Shown here piece after piece: positions 3,689-13,750 of a DNA stretch of 22,419 bases. The notes under the pieces are model-generated. The model worked only from the letters and a program-made list of their open reading frames with translations. It was not told the origin of the DNA and did not search any database. This DNA is from a virus, in IMG/VR virus record IMGVR_UViG_3300001748_000033, positions 1-22,419 of that record, one strand, 5' to 3'. The translations under genes and the position numbers were made by a program. How positions within the stretch are numbered: the first letter of the stretch is position 1; every line of letters starts with the position of its first letter.

Positions 3689-4579
3689 ATGGCTATAAAT
3701 CGATATTTCAGTCAAGGAACAGCATCAGAACAGCGACTCTACGAAGATATTATAATTGAGTCACTGAAAATCTATGGGCAAGATGTTTACTATTTACCTC
3801 GTGAAATAGTTAATCGCGATACTATTTTTAGCGATGACTCTACTTCTAGATTCAAAGATGCGTATCGTATTGAAATGTACATTGAAAACGTCGAAGGTTT
3901 TGACGGTGAAGGCGATCTGTTTACCAAGTTTGGTGTAGAAATTCGTGATGCTGCTACATTTATTGTAGCGCGTCGTCGATGGAATTCTAAAGTTGCTTTT
4001 TATGAAAACACTGACACTCAGTCATTTTATCGCCCGCGCGAAGGTGACTTGATCTATCTTACTTTGTCAAGGTCTTTCTTTGAGATTACAAAAGTCGAAA
4101 CAGAAAATCCGTTTTATCAATTGAAAGACTTGCCTGTGTTTCGCATTCGCGCAGAGTTGTTTGAGTACAATGATGAAGATTTTGATACGAGTCTCAATCT
4201 TGATACCATCGAATCTAATCATGCTTATCAAACAATTCTCACATTTGATTTAGCACAAATGACAGGCAAATTTGAGATTGGTGATACAATTACTCAGACA
4301 AATCCAAACGGATTTACAATTACAGGTGATGTTGTTAAGACTGACGCAACCGTTTCAAGCGCGTATAAAGTTTATGTTGCTCACGCTGGAGCGAGCGATG
4401 GCGAGTTTCATAACTTTTCGACATTGTACAGAATTGAAAATGAAAATGGAATTGGTGGTAAGCCGTCAGCAGTAGGCGAAGAAGATTTGCAAGACAGTCA
4501 ACAGAATGCAGACTTCGATACTGAAGCAACAAATATCATTGATTTCAGTGAGCAGAATCCCTTTGGAGATCCAGTCTAA
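3689..4579 (+). CDS. gp14: Neck protein gp14
   Basis: The 296-residue product carries the gp14 signature near its N-terminus: QDVYYLPREIVNRDTIFSDD, then FKDAYRIEMYIENVEGFDGE and GDLFTKFGVEIRDAATF. T4 gp14 (256 residues) joins gp13 in the neck that closes the head and mates it with the tail. The region around residues 120 to 170 (REGDLIYLTLSRSFFEITKV, then FYQLKDLPVFRIRAELFEY) is also family-typical. The C-terminal 90 residues are less familiar and acidic. The start is one base after the gp13 stop, and the stop overlaps the gp15 start by one base (TAATG), consistent with tightly coupled translation of 13-14-15. Confidence 0.93.
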   Translation: MAINRYFSQGTASEQRLYEDIIIESLKIYGQDVYYLPREIVNRDTIFSDDSTSRFKDAYRIEMYIENVEGFDGEGDLFTKFGVEIRDAATFIVARRRWNSKVAFYENTDTQSFYRPREGDLIYLTLSRSFFEITKVETENPFYQLKDLPVFRIRAELFEYNDEDFDTSLNLDTIESNHAYQTILTFDLAQMTGKFEIGDTITQTNPNGFTITGDVVKTDATVSSAYKVYVAHAGASDGEFHNFSTLYRIENENGIGGKPSAVGEEDLQDSQQNADFDTEATNIIDFSEQNPFGDPV

Positions 4580-5961
4580 TGTTTGGCACTTATTTTTATC
4601 ACCAAAGGATTCGCAAAGCAGTAGCGGTGTTTGGCTCTCTGTTTAATAACATTAATGTTGTTCGAACAAACAGCGCTGGTGCTGTAATGAGTCAAGTTAA
4701 AGTACCTTTGTCTTACGCACCAAAAAGAGATTTTCTAGCTAGAATCGATGCAACACAAGATGGTGAAGAAGCAGAGCGTCAGGTAGCAATTAAATTGCCA
4801 AGAATGTCTTTTGAAATTACGAATATGCAATATGATCCTGCAAGACAATTGCCTAAGATGAATAAGTGTGTGACTTTTCCCACGAACTTCGAAGGTGGTG
4901 CGCGAGAGCTTTACACACCCGTTCCTTATCTAATTGGCTTTCAGTTGAATGTTTATGCAAAATCACAAGATGATGCATTACAAATTGTCGAACAGATTTT
5001 ACCATATTTTACACCACAGTATACGGTGACTGTCAAGCCTTTATCTGATTTTGATACAAAAGAAGATACGCCAATTTCTTTGGTAGGTATTACTTTTAGT
5101 GATGACTATGAAGGGTTGATTGAGGCAAGAAGATCGATCATCTACACACTTGACTTTGAAATGAAACTCAGTCTCTATAAAAACATTGCTGCAACAAGTG
5201 CGGTTATTACTTCTGCCGATGTTAATATCTACGACTATGACGACACAGATAATTTATACTCTACAGTCGAAGTTCGAACATTTTCGAAAGCGGGTCTTTC
5301 AGGTTCTCTTCTGTTCGAAGACGGTGGCACAATTACCAATTCCAATTTCAAAATAGATAATGTACCAGCAGAAGTTTCTTCGCTTGAAATATTGACAGCA
5401 CCGTCAAACGGTACAGCAACAGCAACTTTGACTACGAACACTACAACAGCGCTTGGTAAAATTACGTCAACAGGCACTTGGACGTATACGCCAAACGCAG
5501 ACTGGTATGGATCAGATTCGTTTGTGATCAAAGCTAATTTTGTTGGTGGTGGATCGATCAATTCTACGATTACTGTCTCTGTACAGAATCCTGAAAAAGA
5601 TGCGATCAATGATGCATTTACGTTTGATCTTGCTTTCGACAATTATATTGATTTCAACGTAGCATCAAACGATGATTTTGAAACAACAGGCGGTGTTACA
5701 TATTCTATTTCTGCTGGCGGTTACCCATCGAATGGTTCGGTGCAAGTTTTAAATGCGAATACAGGTGCGTTTAGATACACTCCAAACGCAGGATTTACAG
5801 GAACAGATACTTTTCTTTACAGGGCAACACCAGCAACGGGTCAATCAGAAACGGGAATTGTCACGATAACAGTTAATGATACTGCAAGTACTATGATTGC
5901 AGAATCTGGTGCATTAATTGCAATAGAACAAGACATTGACACTATTATCGCTTACGAATAG
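4579..5961 (+). CDS. gp15: Tail terminator / sheath stabiliser gp15 with two C-terminal Ig-like domains
   Basis: Residues 1 to about 213 match T4-like gp15 (T4 length 272): it begins MFGTYFYHQRIRKAVAVFGS, with PRMSFEITNMQYDPARQLPK and the stretch through LDFEMKLSLYKNI. gp15 caps the tail tube and sheath and mediates head-tail joining. The protein does not stop there. A linker (about 216 to 260) leads into two tandem beta-sandwich repeats, each ending in the same signature: YTPNADWYGSDSFVIKANF around P305 and YTPNAGFTGTDTFLYRA around P402. This is the cadherin-like/Big_9-type signature of tandem adhesion repeats. The extension adds about 245 residues. The core assignment is firm; that the extra domains project from the neck and bind a surface is inference. 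It starts on the last base of gene 14. Confidence 0.9.
   Translation: MFGTYFYHQRIRKAVAVFGSLFNNINVVRTNSAGAVMSQVKVPLSYAPKRDFLARIDATQDGEEAERQVAIKLPRMSFEITNMQYDPARQLPKMNKCVTFPTNFEGGARELYTPVPYLIGFQLNVYAKSQDDALQIVEQILPYFTPQYTVTVKPLSDFDTKEDTPISLVGITFSDDYEGLIEARRSIIYTLDFEMKLSLYKNIAATSAVITSADVNIYDYDDTDNLYSTVEVRTFSKAGLSGSLLFEDGGTITNSNFKIDNVPAEVSSLEILTAPSNGTATATLTTNTTTALGKITSTGTWTYTPNADWYGSDSFVIKANFVGGGSINSTITVSVQNPEKDAINDAFTFDLAFDNYIDFNVASNDDFETTGGVTYSISAGGYPSNGSVQVLNANTGAFRYTPNAGFTGTDTFLYRATPATGQSETGIVTITVNDTASTMIAESGALIAIEQDIDTIIAYE
5226..5907 (+). repeat. Two Ig-like (cadherin-like/Big_9-type) repeats appended to gp15
   Basis: Within gene 15, two protein repeats of roughly 90 residues share the closing motif Y-T-P-N-A-(D/G)-(W/F)-(Y/T)-G-(S/T)-D-(S/T)-F, with the prolines at residues 305 and 402. 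Each is preceded by an N-G-(T/S)-(A/V) turn (SNGTATATL and SNGSVQVLN). The match is at protein level; the DNA of the two copies is clearly diverged. Confidence 0.75.
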
Positions 5962-5969
5962 GAACGATC

Positions 5970-6284
5970 ATGCCAACTATAAAAATTTCTCAGTTAGACG
6001 AGTTTTCTGGAACACCAGATAGTTCTGATTTGCTTCCACTTGTAGATTTAAGTGAAACGCAAACTAAAAGAATCTCAATACGAGATTTAGCCTCTTATAT
6101 GGACAGCGCAGAAAACGCGACTAATGCAATTGTGGCTTTAAGAGCAGACACAACTGAAAATGCAATTTATGTTTCAGGAGACTCGTCTGGCATCTGGAGT
6201 GGTGATCCACCAGAAACTGTAAATGATGCAATTGATAGACTGGCTGCACTTATTCAATCTTTGAATGGTGGTACTGGCGCATAA
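5970..6284 (+). CDS. Minimal fibre-family protein (shared N-terminal domain, short tail)
   Basis: This 104-residue protein begins KISQLDEFSGTPDSSDLLPL and continues VDLSETQTKRISIRDLASY. The same arrangement (K/R-I-x-(Q/D/E)-L ... D-(D/L)-x-L-x-(V/I)-x-D-x-(S)-x-x-T-K-(R/Q/K)-I) opens the next three proteins, so this is a shared fibre attachment or assembly domain. After it come a single Ala-Asn segment matching the repeat of the gene at 7030 (residues 45 to 59) and a helical tail, TVNDAIDRLAALIQSLNGG. There is no fibre shaft or receptor-binding tip. A ribosome binding site (AGGAAC) overlaps the end of gene 15. It could be an adaptor, a stunted paralogue or a fibre inhibitor; the data do not decide. 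Confidence 0.6.
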   Translation: MPTIKISQLDEFSGTPDSSDLLPLVDLSETQTKRISIRDLASYMDSAENATNAIVALRADTTENAIYVSGDSSGIWSGDPPETVNDAIDRLAALIQSLNGGTGA

Positions 6285-6288
6285 TCAG

Positions 6289-6296
6289 TATAAATA
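6289..6296 (+). promoter_or_regulatory. T4-type late promoter box TATAAATA
   Basis: An exact TATAAATA, the T4 late promoter -10 consensus, lies in the 37-base gap between the genes at 5970 and 6322. A GAGGAA ribosome binding site starts at 6311, leaving room for a normal short leader. Confidence 0.75.
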
Positions 6297-6321
6297 AAGA
6301 AAACTCTTTTGAGGAATTACG

Positions 6322-7026
6322 ATGGCTATAGCAGGCGTACCAATATCGACTCTTAGGGAACTTGTCATACCCGCGAGCGATGATTATCTAGTCATTAATG
6401 ACCAAAGCACTTTTACAACAAAAAGAATTACATTCGCTAATCTTTTTGCTGATTATGCTAGCAATCTTAGAGATTCTGCTACGGGTGCGTTCGTCGATAA
6501 TTTTACAACTAACAGTCTTAACGTAAAAGGAAATGCGTCAGTTACGGGTGATGCTACGATCTTAGGCACAATCAATTTCGAAAATCTCTATGATGTTGTT
6601 GAAGGTATTACGATAAGTAAGTTTGTTGATGAAGCTGATGGTATTGCAAGTAATGATAATGATACTTCGATCCCAACATCAGCAGCAATAAAAGCATATG
6701 TTGACGGAGCTGTTTCTGACTATCGTGCAAAAGAAAACATCAAGCCATTTGGTGAGGCGTTAAAAAAACTAAATGGTATTAAAGCGTATGAGTACAACCT
6801 GATTGCAGAACCTGGCGTCACCGAAGTTGGTTTCATTGCACACGAACTACAAGAAAGATTGCCTACTTTAGTCAATGGCGAAAAAGATGCAGTTTACGAA
6901 GGTGGTAAGCCGAAATATCAAACAGTGAATTACGCTAAAATGGTTCCCATTTTGTTCACCGCAATTCGTGAACTAGAAAAGCAAGTAAGAGACTTAAGAG
7001 ATCAACTTGCAGAGATTAAAGGATAA
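6322..7026 (+). CDS. Fibre protein with C-terminal S74-type self-cleaving chaperone domain
   Basis: The 234-residue protein has three parts. Residues 1 to about 45 are the shared fibre N-terminal domain (ISTLRELVIPASDDYLVIND, then TFTTKRITFANLFADY). Residues about 55 to 130 are a module also found in the gene at 8512: a LNVKGNASVTGDATI strand block, DVVEGITISKFVDEADGI, then IPTSAAIKAYVDGA. Residues 132 to 234 are a Peptidase_S74 intramolecular chaperone: it begins SDYRAKENIKPFGEALKKL and contains EVGFIAHELQERLPTLVNG, then VNYAKMVPILFTAIRELEKQ. In the endosialidase family this domain trimerises the fibre and cuts itself off just before the serine of S-D-x-x-x-K; here Ser132 and Lys137 have exactly that spacing, so cleavage between 131 and 132 is expected. 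The protein is short for a fibre, so the mature piece would be only about 131 residues. Confidence 0.85.
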   Translation: MAIAGVPISTLRELVIPASDDYLVINDQSTFTTKRITFANLFADYASNLRDSATGAFVDNFTTNSLNVKGNASVTGDATILGTINFENLYDVVEGITISKFVDEADGIASNDNDTSIPTSAAIKAYVDGAVSDYRAKENIKPFGEALKKLNGIKAYEYNLIAEPGVTEVGFIAHELQERLPTLVNGEKDAVYEGGKPKYQTVNYAKMVPILFTAIRELEKQVRDLRDQLAEIKG

Positions 7027-7029
7027 ATC

Positions 7030-8484
7030 ATGGCTGGAGTAAAAATAACAGACTTAGATCAGCTGATTGGTCAACCTGCGGATGATGATGTTCTTATTGT
7101 CGTAGACACAAGTGATAATGTCACAAAACAGATTACTGTTGCTGATCTTATTACTGCAACCGAAGATGCTACGACAGCACAGGTCGCTGATCAATTTAAA
7201 GTTGCCACAGAAAGTACGAATGCTTCTTTTTATGTTACCTTCGTAGCTTCTACTTCTGGGCAAGATTCAGCTAAAGTCGATACAGCTTTAAGTTATAATC
7301 CTGCTACGAATATTCTGACTGCTGGTCAGTTCACTGGAAGTGGTGCTGGGCTTACAAACGTAAATGCTGACAGCGCTCTGAATGCGGCTAATGCTGTCTT
7401 AGCGACCACTGCAATTACTGCTTTAAATGCTCTAGCAGCTGACAGTGCGACCACAGCAACTTCTTCTATTACTGCTTTGCGCGCCACTTCTGCAGATAGT
7501 GCTACTAATGCCACGAACGCAATTGTTGCCCTTCGCGCGACAACTGCTGACAGTGCAGCAAATGCAACAAATGCATTGTTTGCAACTACTGCCACTTCTG
7601 CTCTGACTGCTGACAGTGCCACTAACGCCACAAATGCCAATAATGCAATTAGAGCATTGACTGCTGCTGGTGCTGATAGTGCTGCGTTTGCTACTTCTGC
7701 TTTGACTGCTCAGACTGCGCAAATTTCTATTTTTTCTGACAGTGCAGGAAATGCAACCAATGCGCTTCATGCTTTAAATGCTGATGCTGCTTTGATTGCA
7801 GATAGTGCATTTAATGCTGCAAATGCTTTGCTCGCAACTCTTGCTATAGAATCTTTGGGCGATTTGGACAACATTAGAGATTCTGCTAATGGTGTAACAG
7901 CGACTGGTGATCTAACCGTTGATAGCGATCTTATCGTTCGCGGTGTTTTGTTCGGTGATGGTTCAGGTCTAACAGGTGTAACAAGTACTTCTGTCGCAAC
8001 TGCTGCAGAAAAAGTCGATGCGAAAGCTGCGGATTCGACCGGTACACACTATCTTATGTTGCGTACAACGCAAACTGGTTATGATAGTGTTTCAACTAAA
8101 GCTAATTTAACTTATGATCCTGTTACTGGTATTTTAGCGTCTGGTGGATTTTCTGGAGACGGGTCGAACATCAGCAACGTTGCTGCCGTTAGCGCAACAA
8201 ATGCGTCAAACGTTGTAATTACAACAGTAGCAGACAGTTCGACATATTTCCCTTTGCTTTCAAGCACATCTTCTGGTAATGATAATGTTCATGTTAGTGT
8301 GAATATGCAAGTCAATCCGTTTAGGGGAAGATTAAAGCTTAATATTTTTGCCACAGATAATTGGGAAATGTTTGAAAGCGCAAACGAACTATTCTTCTCA
8401 TATAACGGAGTTAAGAAAGTTAAATTTGATTCGTCTGGCAATGTGTTCATGACAGGAACCCTTACTCAAAGCGCTTCGTTATAA
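7030..8484 (+). CDS. Alanine-rich repeat fibre protein
   Basis: This 484-residue protein opens with the shared fibre domain (VKITDLDQLIGQPADDDVLI, then VDTSDNVTKQITVADLIT). Residues about 113 to 277 are eight imperfect repeats of 18 to 27 residues, each starting (A)-D-S-A and rich in Ala, Asn and Thr; this resembles fibre shafts built of regular trimeric repeats. Around them are three copies of a phage-fibre module that starts at an aromatic pair (F67-Y68, H340-Y341, Y406-F407); the first two end in a G-x-F-(T/S)-G-x-G-x-x-(L/I) turn. The C-terminal 60 residues (RLKLNIFATDNWEMFESANE, then VKKVKFDSSGNVFMTGTL) form a possible tip. The stop codon is embedded in the next late promoter. A host-contact role is inferred. 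Confidence 0.75.
   Translation: MAGVKITDLDQLIGQPADDDVLIVVDTSDNVTKQITVADLITATEDATTAQVADQFKVATESTNASFYVTFVASTSGQDSAKVDTALSYNPATNILTAGQFTGSGAGLTNVNADSALNAANAVLATTAITALNALAADSATTATSSITALRATSADSATNATNAIVALRATTADSAANATNALFATTATSALTADSATNATNANNAIRALTAAGADSAAFATSALTAQTAQISIFSDSAGNATNALHALNADAALIADSAFNAANALLATLAIESLGDLDNIRDSANGVTATGDLTVDSDLIVRGVLFGDGSGLTGVTSTSVATAAEKVDAKAADSTGTHYLMLRTTQTGYDSVSTKANLTYDPVTGILASGGFSGDGSNISNVAAVSATNASNVVITTVADSSTYFPLLSSTSSGNDNVHVSVNMQVNPFRGRLKLNIFATDNWEMFESANELFFSYNGVKKVKFDSSGNVFMTGTLTQSASL
7366..7860 (+). repeat. Eight ADSA repeats inside the fibre gene
   Basis: The encoded protein repeats a unit like ADSATNATNAIVALRATT eight times with drift (starts at ADSAL, ADSATT, ADSATN, ADSAAN, ADSATN, ADSAAF, DSAGN, ADSAF). 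The DNA copies use many different synonymous codons, so the repeat is much clearer at protein than at base level. Confidence 0.8.
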
Positions 8485-8487
8485 ATA
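8480..8487 (+). promoter_or_regulatory. T4-type late promoter box TATAAATA
   Basis: An exact TATAAATA contains the TAA stop (8482-8484) of the fibre gene. It precedes the gene at 8512, which has a GAGGAA ribosome binding site at 8501. Spacing suits a normal late transcript leader. Confidence 0.75.
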
Positions 8488-8511
8488 TTGCTAGATTGCT
8501 GAGGAAACAAA

Positions 8512-9273
8512 ATGGCAGACATTAGAATTTCAGAGTTGTCCGAACTAATAAACATTGCGGCAGACGATGTTCTTGTCGTCAATGATGTTTCGGCTGCGAC
8601 GACGAAAAAAATCACTCGTGCAAACTTCTTAGTCGGTGTAACACAAAACGTTACGGACTCTGGCGATAATGCTGTTGTTGCTCAAGATTTAACAGTAAAC
8701 AATGATCTTTTCGTCGGTGGAAATATTGACACCACTGGTGATGTCAAGTTTGGTTCTTTAACAGATGCTGTTTCCGGTCTGACCGTAAATCGTATAATCA
8801 AAGATACCGATGGTTTGCAGAATCACGATAGCAACGGCGCTCTTCCTACTACTGGCTCTGTGATTGAATACTTAAATTATTACAACACTGACATTAATGT
8901 GCGCAATTCTTTTTCAGTGACTACGGCTTCACTTGCAAATAGTGATTCTGCAGAAGCGCTGATTGCTGGATACAAAGGCTACGCTCTGTACAAAATTCAA
9001 ACAGACAAAGCTGCTTGGGTAAGAGTTTATACGGACTCGGCTTCAAGAACGGCTGATGAAGGAAGAGCTAAAGGAGTTACACCAGCAGACCACATAGGTC
9101 TTGTCTCTGAAGTTGTGACTTCTGGTGCGCAAACAATTAATCTTGCTCCAGCACCCGTTGGCTTTAATAATTCTTCACCTGTGAAAAGTTCGATCCCGCT
9201 TAAGATCGTGAATCTCAGCGGCTCTACGGACACTGTTCAAGTTACTCTTACGGCTATGAAGCTTGAAGGGTAA
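8512..9273 (+). CDS. Fibre-family protein with C-terminal beta domain
   Basis: The 253-residue product starts with the shared fibre domain (IRISELSELINIAADDVLVV, then AATTKKITRANFLVG). It continues with a strand block (NNDLFVGGNIDTTGDVKFGS) and a D-G ... LPTTGSVIEYLNYY segment equivalent to the module in the gene at 6322. The C-terminal 110 residues (YALYKIQTDKAAWVRVYTDS, then RTADEGRAKGVTPADHIGLV and LKIVNLSGSTDTVQVTLTAM) form a beta domain that I recognise as recurring at fibre C-termini in marine T4-like phages; its ligand is not known to me. It differs from its sister at 6322 by having this tip in place of the S74 chaperone. It is likely a tail or neck fibre component and is transcribed from its own late promoter. 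Confidence 0.75.
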   Translation: MADIRISELSELINIAADDVLVVNDVSAATTKKITRANFLVGVTQNVTDSGDNAVVAQDLTVNNDLFVGGNIDTTGDVKFGSLTDAVSGLTVNRIIKDTDGLQNHDSNGALPTTGSVIEYLNYYNTDINVRNSFSVTTASLANSDSAEALIAGYKGYALYKIQTDKAAWVRVYTDSASRTADEGRAKGVTPADHIGLVSEVVTSGAQTINLAPAPVGFNNSSPVKSSIPLKIVNLSGSTDTVQVTLTAMKLEG

Positions 9274-9290
9274 AAAACAAGAAGATTGTA

Positions 9291-12200
9291 ATGCATAAAG
9301 GCTTTCTCGACAAAAGAAGAAGATTCCTTAATCTGCGAGAAATGCAGATCGAAAATGTTTTGCCTGAACATTTTACACAGTCATATCCAAAATTTATCAA
9401 TCTTCTTTCTCGCTACTATGAGTGGCAAGATCAAAACAATCCTAATGAATTATTAAATCATCTTTTTGCGACTCGTGATATTAATGAAACTGATATCACG
9501 CTTCTCTCGTTTATTGAAGATGAGTTTCTTTTAGGCGAAGCATACTTCGAAGGCTTTGGTGACACCGAAGCAGAGAAAAGGGCTGCTGCAAATTTTTCAA
9601 ATCAGATGTTTCGTTCAAAAGGCACAAAATTCGCAATCGAATGGTTTTTCAGATCATTCTATGGGCTAGACGCAGAAGTTCGTTACACAAAAGAAAATGT
9701 ATTTACGCTCAACACACAGTCTTCTCAGATAGGACCAGATTCGCTACGCTATCTTACCAATGACGAACTATATCAGACATTTGCGCTTCTTGTTCGCGTA
9801 GGTGTTCCTATTGCAAAGTGGAGAGATATCTTTAAACTCTTTGCACATCCTGCGGGAATGTATCTCGGTGCTGAAGTTTCTATAAATGATGCTGTGACTT
9901 CTGCCGTAAATTCTTTGATGCTTGATTCTGCAGTTGAACAAAGAGCCAACGAATCATATACAATTCTTGCAACGCCTGACAGCACAAACGAAGGCGCTAT
10001 AATTAATTTTAAAGTTAACGGAACAAACATTCCTAACAATACTGGTTATATTTACTATCATGTTCTTGATCTCACTACAAGCGATTCAGATTTTGTGGGA
10101 ACTGTTCCTCGATTAGACAGTTTGCAGTATCTTCCCATAAACGATAGTGCTGGTCAAGCGGTTGGAAGATTTACGATTACCACCAAGCTTGATAGTGTTG
10201 AAGGTGAAGGTGTTCATTCGTTTAATGTTATTTTGCGTGACGATGATTTGAGACCTCGAGGTGTTGAAAGAGTCAACTTAAACGATGTTATTTCTTCGTA
10301 TGTTATGACTCCTACGGCAACTACTATCGCTGAAGGTTCGCCTGTTACTTTTAATGTTGTGGGAACAAATGTCCCAAGCGGCGGTAGCACAACATTATAT
10401 TATTATGTACAACACGTTACTACAAGTGATTCTGATTTTAAAGTTGCACCTCCAAGTGCTGCTGCGCCTGCTTCATTTTTTATTCGAGGAAGTACAGGGT
10501 CGTTTTCTATAACGCCTCAAATTGATAATGATCTTGTTGACAGTGACGAACAGTTTAAAGTAATTATTCAGACACTTGACGCTATCAAAAAAGATTCAGC
10601 AACAATTACAGTTTCACAGACCATTCCTCCCTTTGCTGTAAATGCAATTGATTCTGCGATTGAAGGCACGAGTATTGTTGCACCTCTTACAATTTCAGAA
10701 CAAGATTTTGGCGACACTTTAACGTGGGCAATTACAGGCGCTGCAGCATCCGATAGTCGACTAGCTTTCAATACTTCAGGCACAATTGTAGCGACTTCTG
10801 CAAGTCAAAATCTAGTAATACCTTTGGGCACTACTAAAGAATACACAGGTCCAGTTTCGGGAACCCTTACGGTCACAAATTCGAACTATACTCCTACACC
10901 GTTAAGTACGAACAATACTTTCACGATTTTTGATTCTGCACCTACATATTCTATTCTTATGAATCCTGCAGTTGCTGGAGAAGGCGACACCGTAACATTT
11001 AAACTAGCTGGCAGAAACATTCAAGACAGCACTTTTTATTTTTATATCGACAATGTAACAACTAACGATTTAGATTTTCTTGGTGGGCGACCAAAAAACA
11101 CTAGCAGAGAAGCAGTCTCAGTTGTTAACGACTCTGGTACCACCAATTCAATCACTTTTGCTGACAGTGGTGAAGTTGTAGATCAAAATTTCATTGCTTA
11201 CATGTATAATACAGTATCTGGTGGATCGGTGCTTGCGTCGAAGCAATTTACGATTGCGGGCATTACTTATACACTTACACCAAATACGAGTTCTGTTAAC
11301 GAAGGCGGTACAGTAACGTTTACGTTTATTGGTCCGGACGGAACTTATTATTACTGGCTTGAAGGGCAGCGGCTACCAGGACAGACTCAGCTTTTCTCAC
11401 AAGGCGATTTTACTAGTGGTTTTGCAAATATAAACAGTCGTTTGGCATTTAACGTAACCGGAGGCAGTGGATCTTTTTCAGTAACACTCGCAAATGATAT
11501 TCGATCAGAAGGTACAGAAGCTTTCATTGCAAGCGTGTCAACAAGCCCAACAAGCGGAGCTATAGCTGTTTCGCCACAGATTACAATTAATGATACTTCT
11601 AAGCAAGAATATACGATGACGATTCAAAACATTCTTGAAGGTGACGATTTGCTTGTTAATGTAGCATCAAATGCAGGACCTTCAGAGCCTTTGTTTTATG
11701 AAATTTCTGGGGCGGCCGCGGCTAAATTCAGTTCAACACAAATTTATAGATTATACACTGGGGCTCAGACTTCTTTTAATGTAAATCTTGGAACTTCGAC
11801 AACAAACTCAGCTTTTGATGGTGTGTTATCTGGTACTGTAACACTGTCGCGTGGCGGTTATGTTGGAAGCGGCGGTACACTAATCGACACCGCGAACTTT
11901 ACTTTAAGCGATCTTGCTGCTACGTTTACGCTTGCTGCAAGCACAACTACACCAAACGAAGGCGGAACTATTACTTGGACTGTAGGCGGCTCAAGTATTG
12001 AAGACGGCACTTACTATTATAGAGTATCTGATGTTAAAAGAGCATCAGTATCTTCGGCTGTTTCATCCGGAACTTCTGTTATTAATCTTGCAAGCACAGC
12101 TGGAATTACAGTTGGCATGGCATGCGATAACGCTTCAATATCTGGGACAGTCACAGGTGTTTGGGATACTCAAGTTACAATGAGTTCACCAGTCACATCT

Positions 12201-13373
12201 ACGATAGGCGCAGGAACAATTTTGAATTTTGCAAATCAATCGGTGTTTGATGATTTTACAAGTGGCTATGCAGGATCAGTCAGTGTGACATCGAATGCAG
12301 GTGCTTTCAACACTGTCACTGCAATTAACGCAGACACTAAGAACGATGCGTATACGATGGGATTATACACCACATCAACTGGTGCTTCTCCTGTAGCGTC
12401 TGTAGGATTTACGACAACAGATGCAACTCCAGCTTCGATAGTTAATATTCTTATCGATGCTGGTAAAGACTTTGTTTACGATATTAATCCTGATCCACCT
12501 GCGTATGATGCGGGCGTGGCAAGATCGATTATCAGATTTGAAAACGATGGTAAAGTATATGCTATTGGCAGCGAGAATCCAGGAGGAGGTGACCGCAGCA
12601 GTGGCGAGTTGATTGGCACTTGGGTGTCTAGTGGGCCCGTTGGTAACTTTAACATATCAGCACAGGTCGTTTCAGGACCTACACCAAAAGGCACGTTTAT
12701 TGGTTCTACAGGAACGCAATTGTCTCTGTCGACGAACAGAGGCTGGTATCTTGAAGTGCCAGCGCCGACATCTGGTAGCAATGAAGGAACGTTAAGAGTT
12801 GACATTACAATTACAGACGTAGAAGATCCTTCGAACACAGACACACAACGCTTTGAGCTATATGCCGTTGCGAATGCTTTGCCTGTAACAGCACCTGTTG
12901 ATCCGCCTCCTCCAGGCTCAAGTAGTCAGCTTGACGAAGACTGTTTTACAGAAAATTCTTTTGTCACGTTAACTGATGGAACTAGAAAAGAAATTCGATT
13001 AATTGAAGTTGGTGATAAAGTACTTGGTGCAGACAAGTCGATCAATGAAGTTACGCGCAATCATTCTATCGAAAAAACTTCTGCTCTGTATGGATGGGGC
13101 AGCACAGTACCGTTTGTGACTGGCGCTCATCCATTCTTAACAACACAAGGTTGGAAATGTTTTAATTTAGAAGCAGGGCGTAAACTACATCCTGAGCTTG
13201 ACCTGACAGAAATACAAGAAAACGATAAATTAATTGTTTGGAATGGAACAGAATATACGACTTCGACAGTTCAAAATATTGCCATTGAAATCAAAAACGT
13301 TAAAATCAATAGCTTGAGTGTGACGGGTAATGACACTTACATTGCGAATGGATTTGTTGTTCACAACAAATAA
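9291..13373 (+). CDS. Giant Calx-beta-repeat virion protein with C-terminal Hint autoprocessing domain
   Basis: The 1360-residue product has a helical N-terminal domain (about 1 to 215), including VLPEHFTQSYPKFINLLSRY and FRSKGTKFAIEWFFRSFYG, of a type found in large structural proteins of marine T4-like phages. Residues about 222 to 1044 are beta-sandwich repeats with the Calx-beta-like signature NEGGTVTFT ... DGTYYY (starts near 222, 337, 553, 660 and 879). A second module type starts near 445 and 774 (ITGAAAS / ISGAAAA). The fifth Calx-like repeat holds a foreign insert (917 to 983). A distinct beta domain (about 1045 to 1200) and a Pro-rich linker follow. Residues 1218 to 1360 are a Hint domain: Cys1218 (block A, CFTENSFVTLTDGTRKEI), T1277-x-x-H1280 (block B, TGAHPFLT) and a final V-H-N-K with His1358-Asn1359. 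Hint domains cleave themselves through the Cys. The ribosome binding site is weak. A long adhesin is the likely role. Confidence 0.8.
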   Translation: MHKGFLDKRRRFLNLREMQIENVLPEHFTQSYPKFINLLSRYYEWQDQNNPNELLNHLFATRDINETDITLLSFIEDEFLLGEAYFEGFGDTEAEKRAAANFSNQMFRSKGTKFAIEWFFRSFYGLDAEVRYTKENVFTLNTQSSQIGPDSLRYLTNDELYQTFALLVRVGVPIAKWRDIFKLFAHPAGMYLGAEVSINDAVTSAVNSLMLDSAVEQRANESYTILATPDSTNEGAIINFKVNGTNIPNNTGYIYYHVLDLTTSDSDFVGTVPRLDSLQYLPINDSAGQAVGRFTITTKLDSVEGEGVHSFNVILRDDDLRPRGVERVNLNDVISSYVMTPTATTIAEGSPVTFNVVGTNVPSGGSTTLYYYVQHVTTSDSDFKVAPPSAAAPASFFIRGSTGSFSITPQIDNDLVDSDEQFKVIIQTLDAIKKDSATITVSQTIPPFAVNAIDSAIEGTSIVAPLTISEQDFGDTLTWAITGAAASDSRLAFNTSGTIVATSASQNLVIPLGTTKEYTGPVSGTLTVTNSNYTPTPLSTNNTFTIFDSAPTYSILMNPAVAGEGDTVTFKLAGRNIQDSTFYFYIDNVTTNDLDFLGGRPKNTSREAVSVVNDSGTTNSITFADSGEVVDQNFIAYMYNTVSGGSVLASKQFTIAGITYTLTPNTSSVNEGGTVTFTFIGPDGTYYYWLEGQRLPGQTQLFSQGDFTSGFANINSRLAFNVTGGSGSFSVTLANDIRSEGTEAFIASVSTSPTSGAIAVSPQITINDTSKQEYTMTIQNILEGDDLLVNVASNAGPSEPLFYEISGAAAAKFSSTQIYRLYTGAQTSFNVNLGTSTTNSAFDGVLSGTVTLSRGGYVGSGGTLIDTANFTLSDLAATFTLAASTTTPNEGGTITWTVGGSSIEDGTYYYRVSDVKRASVSSAVSSGTSVINLASTAGITVGMACDNASISGTVTGVWDTQVTMSSPVTSTIGAGTILNFANQSVFDDFTSGYAGSVSVTSNAGAFNTVTAINADTKNDAYTMGLYTTSTGASPVASVGFTTTDATPASIVNILIDAGKDFVYDINPDPPAYDAGVARSIIRFENDGKVYAIGSENPGGGDRSSGELIGTWVSSGPVGNFNISAQVVSGPTPKGTFIGSTGTQLSLSTNRGWYLEVPAPTSGSNEGTLRVDITITDVEDPSNTDTQRFELYAVANALPVTAPVDPPPPGSSSQLDEDCFTENSFVTLTDGTRKEIRLIEVGDKVLGADKSINEVTRNHSIEKTSALYGWGSTVPFVTGAHPFLTTQGWKCFNLEAGRKLHPELDLTEIQENDKLIVWNGTEYTTSTVQNIAIEIKNVKINSLSVTGNDTYIANGFVVHNK
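12942..13373 (+). other. Hint (intein/hedgehog-type) domain at the C-terminus of the repeat protein
   Basis: Residues 1218 to 1360 carry the Hint landmarks in order: a Cys nucleophile at the start, a block-A-like sequence (TLTDGTRKEIRLIEVGDKVL), a T-x-x-H block B (T1277, H1280), and the terminal block (DTYIANGFVVHN) ending in His-Asn plus one Lys. There is no C-extein and no homing-endonuclease insert. Self-cleavage before Cys1218 is predicted from the family; it has not been shown here. Confidence 0.8.
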
Positions 13374-13393: not shown

Positions 13394-13750
13394 ATGAAAG
13401 ATGATGATCCGAATATCAAGTCAGACTACGATTATTCCCGCGCAACCTATTACGAACTAATAGACAAGGGAAGAGAGTCACTTGATCTGATGATTGAAGT
13501 CGCTCGCGAATCAGAACATCCTCGCGCGTTCGAAGTTCTTTCGAACATGATCAAAAACATCTCTGATGTTAATGATAAGCTTATGGAGCTTAACAAAAAG
13601 ACGCGAGAAGTTACTCAACACGAAAAGAAACAAGACCAAAAGGCAATCACCAATAACAATGTGTTTATTGGCAGCACTACTGACTTGCAAAGATTATTAA
13701 TGAAACATGATGATGAAAAGGTGATTGATGTTAGCCCTGCGGATGAATGA
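13394..13750 (+). CDS. gp16: Terminase small subunit gp16
   Basis: The 118-residue product matches the T4-like gp16 family (T4 length 164). The N-terminal helical part reads DYSRATYYELIDKGRESLDL, then VARESEHPRAFEVLSNMIKN, and the C-terminal part carries ITNNNVFIGSTTDLQRLLM. gp16 forms a ring that recognises or presents the concatemeric DNA and stimulates the gp17 ATPase and nuclease during head filling. It lies directly before gene 17 and overlaps it. No Shine-Dalgarno sequence precedes the ATG; instead the upstream bases are occupied by a late promoter box, so translation may be leaderless. No alternative Met occurs before the conserved helical region. Confidence 0.92.
   Translation: MKDDDPNIKSDYDYSRATYYELIDKGRESLDLMIEVARESEHPRAFEVLSNMIKNISDVNDKLMELNKKTREVTQHEKKQDQKAITNNNVFIGSTTDLQRLLMKHDDEKVIDVSPADE

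Follow-up and report, generated by a model that had tools for sequence, protein, structure and literature searches.

A 1360-residue protein encoded by an uncultured T4-like phage ends in a 143-residue Hint domain like those of the A-type bacterial intein-like (BIL) domains, and we think it reasonably likely that this domain cleaves itself off before Cys1218, as a late step in the maturation of the tail protein. Relatives with the same ending (His-Asn-Lys and a stop codon, here called HNK-stop) form one clade, and sequence comparison makes it most likely that a single Hint module has spread to tail proteins that are otherwise unrelated. Hint domains that process themselves have been described in inteins, hedgehog proteins, and bacterial BILs.

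Genomic setting and architecture of the carrier protein

Profile searches identified the window (the whole stretch of DNA analyzed; 22,419 nt) as the neck-terminase-sheath-tube-portal-prohead region of an uncultured T4-like phage. Its closest cultured relative is Phage C48C1 (Kyanoviridae), with 76% identity in the large terminase; identity to the large terminases of cultured cyanophages was below 50% among the matches listed. The genes for gp15 (4579-5961, tail sheath stabilizer-like) and gp16 (13394-13750) form the 5′ and 3′ borders of a five-gene insert (5970-13373, plus strand) that has no counterpart at the same place in C48C1. The last of the five genes encodes the 1360-residue protein. 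The same insert encodes a 234-residue protein with a Peptidase_S74 domain (self-cleaving chaperone of endosialidase; 6322-7026), and a 484-residue protein (7030-8484) matches the chlorovirus glycoprotein repeat PF06598. The gp15-like protein has an additional C-terminal Big_9/cadherin-like region that the shorter C48C1 protein does not have.

The Hint-carrying ORF (9291-13373, plus strand, as are all features within it) consists of a baseplate-wedge-like N terminus, repeats of ~110 residues, a linker, and the C-terminal Hint domain. In the N-terminal region (residues 1-203; 9291-9899), residues 104-190 matched PF23786 (phage baseplate wedge) with 44.1 bits, above the cut-off of 27. This region also matched PHROG 26741 (5.7e-17) and is 32% identical to a C48C1 protein whose gene stands among baseplate-wedge genes; by sequence, it resembles a baseplate-wedge anchor. 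The degenerate repeats (residues ~222-1038; 9954-12404) gave off-register self-matches with E values down to about 1e-14, which are optimistic because the composition correction was off. On homology and gene neighborhood, the basis of the labels "virion" and "tail" used here, the protein is probably a virion or tail protein. A sequence-only reading of this DNA had called it a "giant repeat adhesin"; the repeats are indeed there, from residue ~220 to ~1040, but "adhesin" is not supported as worded, the N terminus being like a baseplate-wedge anchor, and a role in adhesion is putative. The Pro-rich linker of that reading was borne out by both sequence and predicted disorder: residues 1196-1217 (12876-12941; ALPVTAPVDPPPPGSSSQLDED) are rich in Pro and Ser, end in SSSQLDED with Asp1217 as the last residue, and are predicted to be disordered (pLDDT of <50 over model residues 1-19 in AlphaFold2).

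Identification of the Hint domain

Profiles, an alignment of 40 relatives, AlphaFold2, and Foldseek agree on a complete Hint domain at residues 1218-1360 (143 residues; 12942-13370), as had been proposed. The proposed span, 12890-13373, was right from 12942 onward; positions 12890-12941 still belong to the final repeat, of which they encode the end, and to the linker. The residues named earlier are in place. Cys1218 (12942-12944), the putative block A nucleophile, and T1277-G-A-H1280 (13119-13130) supply two marks of the Hint superfamily, a Cys or Ser in block A and a TxxH motif in block B. His1358-Asn1359 (13362-13367) form block G, and Lys1360 at +1 is directly followed by the stop codon (13368-13373), as in 10/10 HNK-stop representatives used for the tree. 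In the 40-member alignment, whose columns are on average 33% identical, the Cys at position 1, the Phe at position 2, the block B His, and the terminal V-H-N-K are invariant. Part of this set had been collected with patterns containing HNK, and the Lys was therefore tested in a separate scan.

Matches of the single sequence to Hint-type profiles were weak; the family as a whole was clear. The Pfam Hint profile matched the window domain alone with an E value of 4e-6, under the curated cut-off, and TIGR01443 (intein C-terminal region) scored above its cut-off. Pfam, PHROGs, and NCBIfam hold no dedicated model for the HNK Hint family. The sequence-only reading had suggested comparing a predicted structure with Hint structures, and this comparison came out in its favor: AlphaFold2 gave a pLDDT of about 97 over the domain and a pTM of 0.82, and both the model and Foldseek showed the horseshoe β fold of the superfamily, with matches to BILs, inteins, and hedgehog. 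Such geometry is not proof of catalysis. Foldseek placed Tetrahymena BIL2 first, inteins next, a Clostridium BIL third, and hedgehog lower (E values down to 1e-9). A profile search of PDB sequences ranked BIL2 (2.7e-15) and the Clostridium thermocellum BIL (2.3e-12) above every intein. By profile, the window Hint thus has its nearest neighbors among A-type BILs, with true inteins and hedgehog farther away.

Between the window and a near relative, L003, dN/dS was 0.063 for the Hint domain and 0.09 for the upstream part; against a second relative, L010, the value was 0.256, with synonymous sites saturated. Purifying selection (dN/dS of about 0.06), together with the invariant catalytic residues, argues that the domain is catalytically active.

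Comparison with known Hint systems

A-type BILs are defined by a +1 residue other than Cys, Ser, or Thr, and B-type BILs by the lack of block G, the terminal His-Asn (PMC4031507). A-type BILs, with His-Asn but without Cys, Ser, or Thr at +1, mostly undergo cleavage (PMC4031507, PMC7765530). The window Hint ends in His1358-Asn1359, in a region where TIGR01443 exceeds its cut-off, and has Lys1360 at +1. Its carriers are variable and not conserved: relatives sit on six unrelated carrier groups, and the insert is missing in C48C1. With A-type BILs such as that of C. thermocellum (PDB 2lwy), it thus has in common size, fold, Cys1, TxxH, terminal His-Asn, a +1 residue that is not Cys, Ser, or Thr, and variable carriers; unlike them, it is found on a phage tail protein, has Lys at +1, and has nothing beyond that Lys. 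The best match in both fold (TM 0.73-0.79, E value of 1e-9) and profile (E value of 2.7e-15) was BIL2 of the Tetrahymena BUBL1 locus (PDB 6y75/6tmm). BIL2 is flanked by ubiquitin-like domains, and its crystal construct carries Met at +1, whereas the window Hint has Lys; no ubiquitin-like Pfam match was found in the 1360-residue ORF, which sets it apart from a BUBL with its flanking ubiquitin-like domains. BIL2 has been reported to form isopeptide bonds and to transfer a ubiquitin-like domain onto other proteins at their lysines (PMC8616854).

Mini-inteins (gp41-1, Ssp DnaB, and Mtu RecA) have the Hint fold and blocks A, B, and G in common with the window Hint, which differs from them in having no Cys, Ser, or Thr at +1, a C-extein of one residue, and an accessory tail protein as carrier. 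We rejected a self-splicing class 1 intein on the grounds that +1 is Lys. We likewise rejected a class 1 intein with its C-extein in a conserved host protein that has intein-free alleles; the C-extein is a single residue, and it is the whole insert that is missing in C48C1. Hedgehog (1at0) shares the Hint fold and the C-terminal position, but no further domain follows the window Hint, the hedgehog-type Pfam profile fell under its cut-off, and 1at0 was only rank 31 by fold. A Hog autoprocessing domain was rejected for want of a sterol/adduct recognition region, the ORF stopping after Lys1360. Hence, the label "hedgehog-like" gives way to a closer affinity with A-type BILs, with which the terminal His-Asn also agrees. 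Also rejected were a B-type BIL, since block G is present, and a pretoxin Hint (PT-HINT), with no toxin domain downstream and a score of 19.8 bits against a cut-off of 27.7. Among fold matches (E value of 6e-14) were BFVD "Hint domain containing protein" entries from uncultured Caudovirales phages, such as A0A6J5KSY2, which, going by their models, probably belong to the same phage Hint family; in the literature searched, they have a name but no described function.

Relatives on unrelated tail proteins

Relatives came from pattern scans of IMG/VR and are mostly metagenome contigs, many of them incomplete. We compared the HNK-stop proteins with the Hint domain removed and found six carrier groups with no cross-matches at a threshold E value of 1e-3. 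By sequence, we place HNK-stop Hints on at least five unrelated tail-protein backgrounds. The groups include the window-type repeat protein, a gpI-like tail assembly protein (phrog_32, 1.6e-37), the ORF for which stops about 10 bases before a gpJ-looking ORF begins, and a gpJ-like protein (Phage-tail_3). Among the members of the largest group are a DUF4815 protein and proteins of ~500 residues, one of them encoded a few genes upstream of gp15. In one virus (L286, IMGVR_UViG_3300017719_000030, a contig shared with L014), adjacent genes encode two distinct HNK-stop Hint proteins.

On a maximum-likelihood tree with ten HNK-stop representatives, the HNK-stop state arose by a single change. Support for the clade was 93/74, which we grade as moderate. 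One clade on unrelated carriers points to one module that moved among tail proteins.

In wider HNK relatives, the Hint domain may open a gpJ-like protein, the Asn then being followed by K-GGGG, or be internal to a tail protein, or occur in tandem; in one (L241), the Hint domain is just upstream of a borderline Peptidase_S74 domain. HNK endings on phage proteins, which had been stated for fiber proteins, are real and broader than claimed, spanning at least five unrelated carriers in addition to these N-terminal, internal, and tandem forms. Hint-less gpJ proteins, compared with the gpJ-type insertions, have other starting sequences and no KGGGG stretch. The gpJ-like tail tip proteins of L140, L142, L157, L176, L189, L194, L198, and L041 open directly with a Hint, and K-GGGG comes next. 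Tandem Hints, two to three per phage protein and joined as HNK-G...-CF, occur in L165 (8841-10028), L158, L185, L098, L100, L109, and L138. A further Hint group has ends like DTYFAGGLLVHN, mostly 5 to 21 residues before the stop, with varied +1 residues (L282, L307, L271, L226, L283, L277, and L284).

Eight virus records were searched for further copies; six had one match and two had two, and no split-intein partner was seen among them. A tblastn search of cultured phages with six family Hints returned true inteins, pretoxin-type Hints, and Hints without His-Asn; no HNK member was among the matches listed, and distant members could escape such a search. Achromobacter phage 2-1 (L205, 3083-4525) and Providencia phage PSTNGR1 (L206, 3554-4507) encode structural-looking proteins with a C-terminal Hint-like region that has no His-Asn end. 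Three genomes searched for the HNK Hint family, without a positive control, gave no match.

The residue at +1

We scanned IMG/VR with a pattern ending at His-Asn that left +1 unspecified. Distinct Hint-like ends had at least 27 Lys, at least 11 Cys, at least 3 Arg, and at least 1 or 2 each of other residues. Among the matches listed, almost every end with Cys belonged to a large intein, in which TxxH lay >200 residues upstream. At least 13 matches with Leu and at least 1 with Asp were rejected as not being Hints. Lys, the commonest residue but not the only one, is thus typical of +1 without being universal. The tree has 10 changes between Lys and other residues at +1; only within the HNK-stop clade does Lys never vary, and around that clade it is nearly constant. 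The occurrence of Arg argues that an amine nucleophile at +1 is not always required. The ends with Arg continue as DPL[CS]QTF (L225, L248, and L266), and L225 is a DUF4815 protein.

Discussion

From the fold, the catalytic residues, the selection, the clade, and the unrelated carriers, all of them observed, we infer a chemistry and a role. Domain shuffling would have brought the module, from a phage clade with HNK-stop ends throughout, onto the end of a T4-like phage's repeat protein that is anchored in the baseplate. Cys1218, aided by His1280, would convert the bond after Asp1217 to a thioester, and Asn1359 would be able to cyclize, releasing Lys1360; this course is taken from the established chemistry of A-type BILs (PMC4031507, PMC7765530). 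For the most part, water or a small amine would then resolve the thioester, and the Hint domain would depart, leaving Asp1217 as the new C terminus of the repeat protein. Its role would be in late maturation of the tail protein, as a terminal module present in folding or assembly and later removed.

It had been held that there is no C-extein and that splicing is impossible. We disagree on both points: Lys1360 is a one-residue C-extein that all HNK-stop relatives found have retained, and in wider relatives genuine sequence continues past HNK. Asn cyclization is chemically possible, as is ligation to Lys1360. Splicing would nevertheless have little visible use, because the proposed BIL splicing route, in which the freed amine attacks the thioester, would add one lysine. 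Simple N-terminal cleavage, for its part, leaves the invariant +1 Lys unexplained.

In a second reading, conjugation, an amine (the side chain of Lys1360, or a Lys or the N terminus of a neighboring tail protein) would attack the Cys1218 thioester, so that the repeat protein becomes amide or isopeptide linked and not merely cut. The thioester could pass to an amine, by analogy with BIL2, which is the nearest solved fold and is reported (PMC8616854) to make isopeptide bonds with the lysines of other proteins. Lys was the commonest +1 residue among the matches listed with a pattern that did not specify it, and it is invariant in the HNK-stop clade. However, +1 can also be Arg, and Arg is not an amine nucleophile. 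Since BIL2 has Met there in the crystal construct, its acceptor lysine must be placed elsewhere, and the likeness lies in the chemistry and not in where the lysine sits. No partner or acceptor motif was found, and most virus records (6/8) have a single copy. We therefore regard conjugation as rather unlikely. In its more general form, the idea is that phage Hints with +1 Lys carry out lysine-directed ligation: amide or isopeptide bonds would connect one virion tail protein with another, or with a target, and neither ATP nor a separate enzyme would be needed. This form draws on the same analogy and seems to us quite improbable.

The fold might instead act as a structural cap that stabilizes or trimerizes the protein end, with cleavage slow or irrelevant. 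A C-terminal module on unrelated tail proteins recalls tail-fiber terminal domains, the Hint of L241 precedes its borderline Peptidase_S74 domain, and the window has an S74 chaperone gene close by; a cap would, however, need no invariant Cys1, block B His, or His-Asn, and we give it little credence. Least credible, and in our view very improbable, is a decaying remnant of a selfish intein that has lost its C-extein and endonuclease. The superfamily is the same and, among the matches listed, the nearest cultured-phage matches of the window Hint are inteins, but a remnant fits poorly with strong purifying selection, with one clade on many unrelated carriers whose stop always directly follows Lys, and with carriers that are not conserved enzymes; nor is there an endonuclease. 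We thus rank cleavage first, followed by conjugation, a structural cap, and a decaying intein.

In the literature searched, we found no paper describing a Hint domain on a phage tail protein and no earlier account of Hint as a shuffled terminal module of such proteins. HNK Hints could serve for making protein thioesters. If active, they would add maturation or cross-linking chemistry to the assembly of phage tails.
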